Below, piece after piece: positions 29,438 to 39,147 of a DNA stretch of 57,665 nt (position 1 is the stretch's first letter; each line of letters begins with the position of its first letter). Below the pieces are notes generated by a model, which made no database searches, was not told where the DNA came from, and worked only from the letters and a program-made list of their open reading frames with translations. The position numbers and the translations under genes are program-made. This stretch comes from Laspinema palackyanum D2a (GTDB lineage Bacteria; Cyanobacteriota; Cyanobacteriia; Cyanobacteriales; Laspinemataceae), in NCBI GenBank assembly GCA_025370845.1, contig JAMXFF010000047.1, positions 1-57,665 of the forward strand, written 5' to 3'.

Positions 29438-29650
29438 CAACACCGGCGGGGGATAAATCCCCCGCCTAATAGCTAAAGTCGGTTTCAACCGACTGAAAGT
29501 TGCAACACCCGGCGGGGGTTAAAACAATTGGCAGCCTAAGAGCTGCGAGTCGGTTGAAACCGACTGAAAGTCTTATGAGGTGATGTTTTTAGTCGTCTTT
29601 AGACGACTTTAGCTATTAGGCGGGGGATTTATCCCCCGCCGGTTGTTGCC
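29438..29650. repeat. Compound hairpin repeat behind hemN
   Basis: A nested inverted structure of about 210 bases. Hairpins on the way in are GGCGGGGGATAAATCCCCC.. (29445-29466) and GTCGGTTTCAACCGAC (29478-29493). On the way out they are GTCGTCTTTAGACGAC (29592-29607) and GGCGGGGGATTTATCCCCC.. near 29620. The joining motif is CTAATAGCTAAAGTCG or its complement. Arms differ between copies by paired changes. The same family fills 35091-35486, 37143-37385 and 38819-39147. Confidence 0.93.
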
Positions 29651-35090: not shown

Positions 35091-35486
35091 CTCAACACCT
35101 GCGGGGGGCGGGGGTTAAAACCCCCGCCTCATAGCTAAAGTCGGTTAAACCCGACTGCAAGTCTTACCTCAACACCGGCGGGGGTTAAAACCCCCGCCTC
35201 ATAGCTAAAGTCGGTTAAAACCGACTGCAAGTCTTACCCTTGGGTGTTTTCAGTCGGTTTCAACCGACTTTAGCTGTTAGGCGGGGGTTTTAACCCCCTG
35301 CAAGTCTTACCCTTGGGTGTTTTCAGTCGGTTTCAACCGACTTTAGCTGTTAGGCGGGGGTTTTAACCCCCGCCGGTTGTTGCTTTCAGTCGGTTTCAAC
35401 CGACTTTAGCTGTTAGGCGGGGGTTTTAACCCCCGCCGGTTGTTGCGGTTAGGCGCTTAGGCAGGGTTTTAACCCCCCCCGGTTTT
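35091..35486. repeat. Array of compound hairpin repeats between cobG and cobH
   Basis: The whole 490-base gap is filled by about five partial copies of the 29438 family. The first two point one way (CGGCGGGGGTTAAAACCCCC..., then CTCATAGCTAAAGTCGG...) and the last three the other way (GTCGGTTTCAACCGAC, then TTTAGCTGTTAGG and GGCGGGGGTTTTAACCCCC..). Copies are joined by AAGTCTTACC and TTGGGTGTTTTCAGTC. One hairpin (GTCGGTTAAACCCGAC) has a mismatch. No gene is supported. Confidence 0.93.
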
Positions 35487-35504: not shown

Positions 35505-37031
35505 TCATATCAACAGTTGAAGTTGGTTGATATCAAATCGATGAGTAAAGGCTGGAAACGATTCATCCGGCGTTGTCCGATTTTGTTGATAGAAAGCCAG
35601 TAACTGGGCAATTCGTGATGGCAGTTCAGGGGTTGTTACCTCGCCTAGATAATGTTGATGGGGAATAGGTTGGGACTCAGGGGCGCGATGCTCATTTTTG
35701 GACCCTGCGCGATCGCCTGAGTCTGAGTGGCTATCCACCGAACCCACATAGATATGATAGCCCTCTAGGGTCTGACCCGACTGCTCAATTGTTGTCCCCA
35801 ACAGGGTGATTTCTGCGGGACTGGGTTGGGCGCAAGACTTGGGACAGGCGGTGAAGTGAATATTAACTGGGCGATCTAAAGTCAGTTGCTGATTGAGATA
35901 ATCCTGAAGGGCGATCGCATCCCTCTGAGTCGCCGTCACCCCAGAGGCACAGCCCGGTTTTCCCGCACAGGCAACGATCGCCGCCTCCACCCCATCATCA
36001 CACCCGCCCAATCCTAACCCCGCCAGATGCTGCAACACCCCCGAAACCTCTTGATCCCGAATATCTGGCAGTAAAATCGTTTGCCAGGGCGTTAACCGCA
36101 GTCCCTGACTGCCAAAAGTTTGGGATAATTCTGCCAATCCCTGGAGTTGAGTGGGGGTGAGTTGTCCTAACCTCAAATTAATCCCGATGTAAGAGAACCC
36201 CCCTTGTTTTTGACCCTGAACCCCTAAATGGGCGTAAGGCTGACTGGGCCGATGGGGGACCTCCTCCCTCATCGGATGCAACGGATGAGTCAGATACTCC
36301 TTCACCGCTTGCAGATAGCGCCGTCCCCCCCAGTTTTGCAACAGATGTTTCATGCGGGGTTTTTTAGGCATTCCCGCCTTCTGATTTACATAGTCCAAAT
36401 AGACCTTTACCAAAGCCCCCACCACAGCCACACACTCATCTGGGGGAATCAACATCTGAGTATCCCATAACTGTTTGTCCGCCCCGAGGTAGAGTTGAAA
36501 AGAGACCTCTTGGCTAGACCCAACCACTGCCGAAAGCTGAATCTCGTTATACCGATGTTCCCAAGGAACGGGCGATCGCGTGCCAATTCCCACCGCACCC
36601 CCCCCATCGATGCCCAGACTAAACTTGGACGGAAGTCCCACCAGTTCCGGATGATGTTGAATATAGGCATCCAAAGCGGTTACCAACGCACGGGTATCTA
36701 TCAACTCCTCAGCATCAATTCCCGCCGTCGGACTCGTCATCACATTCCGCAGATGATCCAGGCGGGGATTTTCCGCCGCTAACCCTATAGTCTGTAAAGT
36801 TTGCAGCACTTCAGCCGTAGGAGCCCCTTGAACTGCCCGAATTTGTAAATTAGCGCGATTCGTCACCTGGATCAACTCGCTTCCCCAAGTTTCCGCCAGG
36901 GTCGCCAGTACCCGTCCTTGCTCTGCATTCAGGAACCCACCCGGGGTCCGAATGCGAATTAAATAGCCATCCTGGGCAGATGTGCCGTAGAATAGCCCAG
37001 GGCAAACGTTCGGTTCAATTAACCAAGCCAC
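35505..37031 (-). CDS. cobG: Precorrin-3B synthase (CobG-like)
   Basis: A 508-residue protein of the nitrite/sulfite reductase fold, annotated as CobG in cyanobacteria, which acts on precorrin-3A before ring contraction. The [4Fe-4S] cysteines are in CAGKPGCASG and ACPKSC in the C-terminal half; two ferredoxin-like half-domains (IRIRTPGGFLNAEQ and IGINLRLGQLTP) are visible. Translation starts at a GTG (37031) with an AGGAGGAGA site just upstream. It is preceded by a cobalamin riboswitch on the same strand, so it is controlled by the vitamin. True CobG requires O2; whether this one does is not visible. Confidence 0.9.
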   Translation of the reverse strand: MAWLIEPNVCPGLFYGTSAQDGYLIRIRTPGGFLNAEQGRVLATLAETWGSELIQVTNRANLQIRAVQGAPTAEVLQTLQTIGLAAENPRLDHLRNVMTSPTAGIDAEELIDTRALVTALDAYIQHHPELVGLPSKFSLGIDGGGAVGIGTRSPVPWEHRYNEIQLSAVVGSSQEVSFQLYLGADKQLWDTQMLIPPDECVAVVGALVKVYLDYVNQKAGMPKKPRMKHLLQNWGGRRYLQAVKEYLTHPLHPMREEVPHRPSQPYAHLGVQGQKQGGFSYIGINLRLGQLTPTQLQGLAELSQTFGSQGLRLTPWQTILLPDIRDQEVSGVLQHLAGLGLGGCDDGVEAAIVACAGKPGCASGVTATQRDAIALQDYLNQQLTLDRPVNIHFTACPKSCAQPSPAEITLLGTTIEQSGQTLEGYHIYVGSVDSHSDSGDRAGSKNEHRAPESQPIPHQHYLGEVTTPELPSRIAQLLAFYQQNRTTPDESFPAFTHRFDINQLQLLI

Positions 37032-37073
37032 AATCTCCTCCTTCTCCGTGCAACGCAGAGAATCAACAAGTTA

Positions 37074-37098
37074 GGGTTTCTCAGATTTAGAGAAACCC
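37074..37098 (-). promoter_or_regulatory. Hairpin in the riboswitch expression platform
   Basis: GGGTTTCTC (37074-37082) pairs with GAGAAACCC (37090-37098), a 9-base stem with a 7-base loop, between the aptamer and the cobG ribosome site. No strong U tract follows on the minus strand, so it may be a weak terminator or part of a translational switch. Confidence 0.55.
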
Positions 37099-37101
37099 CT
37101 T

Positions 37102-37490
37102 GAGGCTGGTATTCTGACTCGCTTTCAGAGGGAGGGGCATTGTTTGAGAGTTCCGACAACCGGCGGGGGTTCAAACCCCCGCCTAACAGCTAAAGTCGGT
37201 TGGAAACCGACTGAAAGTCTTATCCCGTAGGTTTTTTAGTCGGTTTTAACTGACTTGAGCTATGAGGGGTTGGATCCCACGCCGGTTGGAAACCGACTAC
37301 AAGTCTTATCCCGTAGGTTTTTTAGTCGGTTTTAACCGACTTGAGCTATGAGTTTGAACCCCCGCCGGTTGTCGGAACTCTCAAATCGCTCCCTCTGTTA
37401 TTGCATTACAGTTGCGGCACAGTACCGGAATTCCACCGGACTTCCCCAGCATCAAGTTAGGGTAGTTTATCACATAGGCAACACCAAACT
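37102..37490 (-). promoter_or_regulatory. Cobalamin riboswitch ahead of cobG
   Basis: Read on the minus strand, 37447 to about 37400 gives GGGGAAGTCCGGTGGAATTCC, then GGTACTGTGCCGCAACTGTAA. This matches the conserved cobalamin aptamer core, including the B12 box form CCGCAACTGT. The 3' piece GAGTCAGAATACCAGCC lies at 37120-37104, matching the usual AGTCAGGATACCTGCC. The two parts are about 275 bases apart instead of a few tens, because a hairpin repeat fills the peripheral stem between them. The stem GAGGGAG/CTCCCTC at the base is kept. It should repress cobG when cobalamin is plentiful. Confidence 0.88.
37143..37385. repeat. Compound hairpin repeat inside the riboswitch
   Basis: A 243-base member of the 29438 family. 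Its ends are a perfect 19-base inverted repeat, TTTGAGAGTTCCGACAACC (37143-37161) and its complement (37367-37385). Inside are GGCGGGGGTTTGAACCCCC-type and GTCGGTTTTAACCGAC-type hairpins, plus two nearly identical direct segments (CTTATCCCGTAGGTTTTTTAG). It lies wholly between the conserved 5' core and 3' piece of the cobalamin aptamer. Confidence 0.9.
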
Positions 37491-38749: not shown

Positions 38750-38818
38750 CGCCACAATTGGCGGGGATGGTGACGCCACAACCGGCGGGGGTGGTGACGC
38801 CACAACCGGCGGGGGATC
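38747..38818. repeat. 24-bp tandem repeat starting at the cobL stop codon
   Basis: Three copies of TGACGCCACAACCGGCGGGG plus four bases (38747-38770, 38771-38794, 38795-38818). The first copy supplies the TGA stop of cobL. The unit contains the ACCGGCGGGG end of the compound hairpin family that follows immediately, so it is probably a local slippage product of that element's border. Confidence 0.9.
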
Positions 38819-39147
38819 AATCCCCCGCCTAATAGCTAAAGTCGTCTAAAGACGACTGCAAGTCTTATGCTGTGGTGTTTTTAGTCGGTTTTAACTGAGG
38901 TCTTGCACCATTCTCAACACCCGGCGGGGGATAAATCCTCATAGCTAAAGTCGTCTAAAGACGACTGCAAGTCTTATGCTGTGGTGTTTTTAGTCGGTTT
39001 CAACCGACTTTAGCTGTTAGGCGGGGGATTTATCCCCCGCCGGGTGTTGCCACTCCCGCCGGGTGTTGCCACTGTGGTGTTTTCAGTCGGTTTCAACCGA
39101 CTTTAGCTATTAGGCGGGGGATTTATCCCCCGCCGGGTGTTGCCACT
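38819..39147. repeat. Compound hairpin repeats between cobL and cobK
   Basis: Three to four partial copies of the 29438 family fill the gap between the convergent cobL and cobK genes. Hairpins include GTCGTCTAAAGACGAC (38841-38856, again near 38953), GTCGGTTTCAACCGAC (near 38994 and 39085) and GGCGGGGGATTTATCCCCC.. (near 39020 and 39114). The last 45 bases overlap the 3' end of cobK. Confidence 0.92.

Follow-up and report, generated by a model that had tools for sequence, protein, structure and literature searches.

A dispersed compound-hairpin repeat in the L6 arm of a predicted cobalamin riboswitch upstream of cobG in Laspinema palackyanum D2a

In the Class I cobalamin riboswitch of M. tuberculosis metE, P6 carries an extension comprising P7-P11 (PMC11260477), and riboswitches have been reported to tolerate long variable insertions which fold as stem-loops at specific sites; in some cases, a helix interrupts the triloop of the T-loop which L6 forms in the cobalamin riboswitch (PMC2258182). 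The kissing interaction between L5 and L13, with a bulge of 1-2 nt, has also been described, and a 2-nt bulge is reported to make L5-L13 docking cobalamin-dependent (PMC10907184). As regards repeats, one source raises the possibility of riboswitches formed by MITEs and mentions BOX elements with T-box-like motifs; a repeat inside an aptamer does not figure in the portion of that source considered here (PMC10969869). Nor did any riboswitch aptamer containing a dispersed repeat come to light in the literature on riboswitch repeats, MITEs, palindromes and insertions, which was covered mostly at title level and only thinly for subscription journals. Short repeats within cyanobacterial RNase P RNA, likewise a structured RNA and not a riboswitch, were reportedly described by Vioque in 1997.

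Here, we analyzed a stretch of 57,665 nt (the window; contig JAMXFF010000047.1, GCA_025370845.1) from the 7.41-Mb draft genome of L. palackyanum D2a, assembled in 116 contigs. A preliminary description made from the sequence had proposed that a 243-bp hairpin repeat lies inside a minus-strand cobalamin aptamer without breaking it. We compared the leader with 66 related leaders, with those of two sister species (genomes G004 and G006), and with copies of the repeat elsewhere. All coordinates refer to the window, and all features located by coordinates lie on the minus strand unless stated otherwise.

Anatomy and gene context of the cobG leader

The candidate cobalamin riboswitch leader (37044-37456) precedes cobG, an open reading frame with a GTG start encoding precorrin-3B synthase (35505-37031; TIGR02435 315.9 bits, cut-off 234.8). 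Cobalamin genes thus lie downstream of the leader, namely cobG and then, on the same strand, those for precorrin-8X methylmutase, CobI, and CobJ, while a gene encoding a CbiE-CbiT protein is divergent. For comparison, 69 unique 5'-core rows were collected with a fixed 5'-core pattern (55 stretches; 32 of 388 genomes) or with a variant of it relaxed by one letter, and 67 were used, L089 and L095 being dropped because their 3' half was absent or short. As the rows were selected by this pattern, invariance within the core is by construction. The Shapirobacteria-labelled MAG contig L117 carries the 5'-core pattern together with a matching 3' half, and the Berkelbacteria-labelled MAG contig L089 has the same 5'-core pattern as the cyanobacterial leaders.

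The two halves of the core, the 5' core at 37406-37456 and the 3' half at 37099-37119/37120, each have a single occurrence, which is on the minus strand. The 5' strand of P2/P3 (CTTGATGCTGG, 37446-37456) pairs with the 3' strand (CCAGCCTCAAG, 37099-37109) at 10 of 11 positions, and this long-range closure of P3 by the 3' half is also borne out by covariation in the family. Among 51 unique rows, 76.7% of P2/P3 cells are standard pairs, and 94 double changes were counted compared with 36.4 ± 6.4 in permutations, none of 1000 permutations (which ignore the shared ancestry of the rows) reaching as high a value; registers slid by 1-3 nt gave 15-50 double changes. In the P4 hairpin (37425-37440), the two inner pairs are standard in all 67 rows, with pair changes in four rows and one row, respectively, the remaining two pairs being set by the search pattern. 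P5/L5 (37411-37422) presents GUGC-CGC, which is complementary in sequence to GCG-UU-GCAC of L13 and would leave a 2-nt bulge. The 5' strand of P6 (CTG) is followed by TAA, the 5' side of the L6 T-loop (together 37406-37411), and the 3' core half (37108-37119) comprises the end of L6 (AGT), the pattern-fixed P6 3' strand CAG, and J6/3; since both search patterns fix the CTG/CAG pair, its presence in 67 of 67 rows follows from the selection. In the relative with a 1-nt arm, L051, L6 reads U-GAG-A-GU, in agreement, at the level of sequence, with the published T-loop pattern.

The P13 hairpin with its loop L13 (37044-37060) is found in 65 of the 67 rows in the loop form [GA]CGNN[GCA]CA[CT], no P13 match having been detected in L114 and L117. 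All four stem pairs are standard in 62 of these 65 rows, with pair changes, and the loop reads GCGNNGCAC in 53 and GCGNNGCAT in 6, L5 and the loop form being part of the search patterns. A putative ribosome-binding site, AAGGAGG (37037-37043), lies directly 3' of P13, which makes a translational OFF switch likely. Upstream, a putative -10 box, TAAACT (37464-37469), has the form TA...T, present at exactly this offset in 52 of 67 leaders and in at most 6 at any of 11 alternative offsets tried; the transcript would therefore start close to the first base of P2, so that the aptamer probably begins at the first bases of the transcript.

A scan with Rfam models, the check suggested in the preliminary description, found no family at its gathering score in the window. 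At loose thresholds, the best match was AdoCbl-II (RF01689; 36.3 bits, gathering cut-off 36.5), whose 3' end (37358) falls within the insert, away from the true 3' half, and RF00174 gave 20.5 bits (cut-off 31.5) over model positions 46-168. Sisters G004 and G006 likewise showed no cobalamin family reaching its gathering score; their leaders, L037 and L038, scored 30.6 and 30.1 bits, respectively, against RF00174 (cut-off 31.5), with matches covering the whole model (1-189) and both halves, the part of the model for P7-P11 being omitted in the alignment. The 286-nt arm thus lowers the RF00174 score (20.5 compared with 30 bits) and makes the best match adopt a false 3' half. Minimal-arm relatives exceed the RF01689 cut-off (L051, 56.0 bits; L044, 40.5 bits), and RF00174 stays below its cut-off in L043 (53-nt arm, 29.7 bits) and L040 (97-nt arm, 24.7 bits). 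Family leaders fall just under the threshold already in the sisters, which marks a limit of covariance-model annotation. A match that excludes one half had been named beforehand as evidence against the riboswitch, and the best match in the window is formally of this kind; the full-length matches of the sisters and the P2/P3 covariation answer this objection. Matches to microRNA families and to CRISPR-DR28 were discarded as hairpin look-alikes. A sub-threshold c-di-AMP riboswitch match in G004 (L037 3064-3250; 27.6 bits compared with 38) probably arose by chance on hairpin repeats, and a CRISPR-DR28 look-alike lies near it (L037 3291-3314). By its anatomy, the leader is a predicted cobalamin riboswitch with a repeat-enlarged L6 arm, as had been proposed, although the core halves are separated by 286 nt (37120-37405) rather than about 275.

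Native arm, dispersed repeat, and the sister leaders

The L6 arm (37120-37405) is the longest in the 67 leaders and is predicted to form a closed hairpin (0.62, compared with 0.08 in 40 shuffles; MFE z -14.3). Its base appears to be native. The 5' side of the native stem (CAGAGGGAGCGATTTGAGAG, 37378-37397) is identical in G004 and G006, and a sequence similar to its 3' side (37126-37150) occupies the same place in both sisters. The inner part of the arm has perfect inverted ends of 34 nt (37143-37176 and 37352-37385), not 19 as first noted, of which the outer 8 nt are native and the next 6 copy-specific. TTTGAGAG and CTCTCAAA (37378-37385 and 37143-37150) belong to the native arm, because G006 carries both without the repeat. 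The end seen in the window, TTCCGACAACCGG, is found at none of the other 29 loci compared in the own genome (L002-L030, of which a few overlap), whereas an CAACAACCGGCGGGGG-type end is present in 20 of the 29, the repeat there running as CAACAACCGG.../...CCGGTTGTTG; these counts place the repeat proper at about 37157-37371 (~215 nt). Accordingly, the view that the perfect inverted ends mark the element was rejected, their outer part being native arm, and the 243-bp element at 37143-37385 given in the preliminary description, while containing the repeat, extends into the native stem.

Within the repeat, two direct units of 70 nt (37197-37266 and 37283-37352) are 96% identical at a spacing of 86 nt. 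The insert has a predicted folding energy of -132.1 kcal/mol, compared with -67.75 ± 5.23 kcal/mol for 200 shuffles (z -12.3). The dispersed nature proposed for it was borne out. The own genome contains at least 118 matches at E<=0.001 (best 40 of 192 candidates scored), which, when merged within 500 nt, represent at least 40 distinct places, the window copy included; 63 of the 118 matches were merged directly, and the other 55 were taken, by reading, as the same places or the opposite strand. The insert is 72-88% identical to the 29 next-best places in the genome. The family was found in all seven other genomes of the genus searched (at least 4 to 86 matches each, E<=1e-10). Of three additional genomes from the host family, one contained it (at least 14 matches), and it was not found in the other two. 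The repeat has the terminal inverted repeats and high copy number of MITEs, and no consistent target-site duplication was seen by eye in the flanks of 23 copies. Further copies of the family occur at 35107-35443, between cobG and the precorrin-8X methylmutase gene and so inside the likely operon, and more repeat-type CCCCCGCC / GGCGGGGG motifs occur in the window at 29445-29640 and 38778-39130.

The sister leaders, whose comparison the preliminary description had recommended, bear directly on the insertion. G006 has the same riboswitch with a 74-nt arm and no repeat, TTTGAGAG/CTCTCAAA enclosing a 19-nt loop. In G004, the arm measures 80 nt and includes 21 nt of the repeat end, TTCCGACAACCGGCGGGGGTT being present on one side of the arm only. 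As G004 shares part of the repeat end, more than one order of repeat gain and loss in the genus is conceivable. Three sister species thus offer, in near-identical riboswitches, a natural series of bare arm, partial repeat, and full repeat, by which the tolerance of the L6 T-loop is directly measurable.

L6 arms across related leaders

Among the 67 leaders, the L6 arm ranges from 1 to 286 nt (median 36 nt, next-longest 145 nt), with a 1-nt arm in 11 rows, which agrees with the proposal that the insert occupies a variable peripheral stem. Arms of at least 12 nt are predicted to close (mean closure 0.59, compared with 0.19 when shuffled), and 54 of 55 exceed the mean of their shuffles. Their sequences are mostly unrelated across the 67 rows, distant species included, and with such lengths and sequences the arms showed no P7-P11 domain of the Class I kind beyond P6. 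Unrelated arms in distant species argue that the arm is old and that the repeat entered its tip. A long arm of unrelated sequence in distant species had been named in advance as the sign of an old arm rather than a repeat insertion; the arm indeed appears old, and the repeat in it is nevertheless dispersed and absent from this site in G006.

Several lineages build the arm from their own dispersed repeats. The arm of L040, a leader which is the same as Planktothricoides L102, has at least 80, 78, and 72 matches in genomes G011, G012, and G013, compared with at least 1 in G000 and at least 6 in G004. Among the candidates scored, the arm of L091 has at least 43 matches in G118, 10 in G253, and 18 in G175, compared with none in G000 and at least 1 in G011, and the heptad arm of L067 has at least 80, 96, and 60 matches in three genomes, compared with none in G000 and at least 3 in G011. 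The arm itself, if present in the genome, is counted in these numbers, and at most the best 40 candidates were scored per genome. L067 (3067-3193), L077, and L097 belong to a separate group of B12-type riboswitches, in which the 3' halves are of the GCCAGAA type and the arms are heptad repeats of 127-145 nt. The arm of L137 is a weak repeat with three other places in G182, and that of L150 is unique. In total, 29 arms in the 67 rows measure at least 51 nt, and 24 of them were queried (L149, L086, L037, L077, and L097 being left out). Six proved to be clear dispersed repeats (the window, L040, L091, L067, L100, and L098), two were weak (L137 and L039), and 16 had no other match on their own stretch.

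Six of the earlier queries had been chosen by eye, those of the window, L040, L091, L067, and L137 as repeat-like and that of L150 as not, so that their repeat rate is not a sample. We therefore compared 18 additional arms, each measuring 51 nt or more, with 18 length-matched non-arm controls from the same loci, scoring at most the best 22 candidates per genome. At E<=1e-4 within the respective genome, two of these arms were clear repeats (G178, at least 21 other matches; G421, at least 14 at 10 places of its own stretch) and one was weak (G034, one match on its own stretch). Among the controls, one was clear (G210, at least 47 other matches), and those of G266, G419, and G006 each had just one other match, located on the control's own stretch. 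Five controls were taken just upstream, there being no ORF-free stretch long enough, and matches between species suggest that some are coding, so that the control leans low. With clear repeats in 1 of 18 controls and 2 of 18 arms, no preference for the arm is shown, and the idea that repeats prefer it was rejected. Repeats seem to be common in these genomes, the arm presumably being where the RNA can bear them.

Fate of the switch and comparison with known systems

We consider it likely that the leader is a working translational OFF cobalamin riboswitch which has tolerated the insertion, although its ligand binding, class, and OFF mode, the near-neutrality of the insertion, and the order of events are inferred. 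The expression of cobG would be controlled by a minimal class-II-like core consisting of P2-P6, the L4 and L6 T-loops, and the L5-L13 kissing interaction, with the ribosome-binding site beside P13. A peripheral hairpin, free in both sequence and length, may interrupt the L6 T-loop of this family; in the present lineage, the tip of such an old arm would have received a self-complementary repeat of the dispersed family, which carries an internal duplication here. With the two ends of this repeat paired to one another, the arm would stay closed and the core halves could still meet.

An alternative that we regard as rather improbable is that the insertion disabled the switch, leaving a pseudo-riboswitch with cobG constitutively on or off. 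The arm is indeed about twice as long as the next longest of 67 (286 compared with 145 nt), and the added length might delay P3 closure during transcription. Modelled pairing speaks on both sides. P6 is weaker with the insert (pairing probability 0.51, compared with 0.64 without the arm), whereas P3/P2 pairing is the same, with 0.99/0.96 with the insert and 0.98/0.95 without it. The thermodynamic model is crude, since P4 reaches only 0.21-0.27 in all versions, and other inserts perform nearly as well: P3 averaged 0.93 over 60 shuffled inserts, of which 6 did as well as the real one, and 0.91 over 60 random 243-mers from the window, of which 3 did so. At P6, the real insert was equalled or exceeded by 35 of the 60 shuffles and by 34 of the 60 random pieces; pairing with the core was as low as that of the real insert in 30 and 31 of 60, respectively. 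The real insert thus lies at the good end for P2/P3 only, and the folding test is weak: it hardly separates real from random inserts, and for P6 and pairing with the core it does not do so at all. The earlier proposal that the element folds autonomously and so spares the core is therefore weaker than first stated, as shuffled and random inserts nearly match its P3 values, and tolerance through autonomous folding is no more than plausible.

Comparison with the two sisters argues against a disabled switch. The 64-nt 5' stretch of the window differs from G004 at four positions and from G006 at one, and the 110-nt 3' stretch differs from G004 at three and from G006 at 10 plus 8 gap positions, so that there is no sign of decay in the core, P13, or the ribosome-binding site; cobG is open, and its protein is 94% identical to that of G004. 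The core sequences have thus been kept, as had been supposed, with both halves unique and few differences from the sisters. Since the insert also sits at a spot where related switches vary freely, the sensing core looks intact, with the folding model pointing weakly in the same direction.

It is very unlikely that there was no insertion event and that an old, divergent arm merely resembles repeats, such hairpins arising repeatedly. Unrelated arms of up to 145 nt in other genera and the arms of 80 and 74 nt in G004 and G006 would fit this, but the insert is 72-88% identical to 29 other places in its genome, and its family is present in all seven other genus genomes searched while G006 lacks it at this site. 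An assembly artefact, in which a high-copy repeat was collapsed or expanded in a draft of 116 contigs, can practically be dismissed, as the copy-specific TTCCGA/TCGGAA junction occurs at none of 29 other own-genome loci and G004 has the 21-nt piece at the same position.

Beyond the tolerated insertion, we entertain as a speculative and improbable extension that the peripheral L6 domain of cyanobacterial B12 riboswitches has been built time and again from dispersed repeats with self-complementary sequence, which can become lineage-specific tuning domains. If so, repeats would enter the interruptible T-loop and be kept because they fold shut; a long duplex might, for example, be cut by RNase III, yielding a two-piece aptamer held by P2/P3, and the P6 extensions of Class I could have the same origin.

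Compared with RF00174 and RF01689 (clan CL00101), the leader shares the P3-P6 core, a B12-box-like 3' half, the L5-L13 complementarity, and a cobalamin gene 3' of it, with the L6 T-loop pattern visible in short-arm relatives; it differs in scoring under both gathering thresholds and in its 286-nt L6 arm built from a dispersed repeat. The Class I P6 extension, as described in part of the source (P7-P11; PMC11260477), has the same place beyond P6, whereas here the hairpin is of free sequence and is missing from some leaders, no conserved inner domain being seen in 67 rows. MITE and REP-type repeats resemble the insert in their high copy number, self-complementarity, and ability to fold as RNA hairpins (PMC3733652, PMC10969869), and the family studied here differs by the absence of a target duplication, by eye, in 23 copies. 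In P6b of the cyanobacterial trnL intron, a peripheral stem of a structured RNA likewise holds short repeats; in the part of that work considered, these are heptad repeats and not a compound palindromic element, and the RNA is not a riboswitch (PMC4476775). Closest are the published variable insertions, long, non-conserved stem-loops at specific sites which leave the core untouched; in the portion of that study considered here, they are not traced to a mobile or dispersed repeat (PMC2258182). The insertion site (L6, the P6-P7 T-loop) and the principle of tolerance are therefore known, and the identity of the insert as a dispersed repeat is the addition made here.
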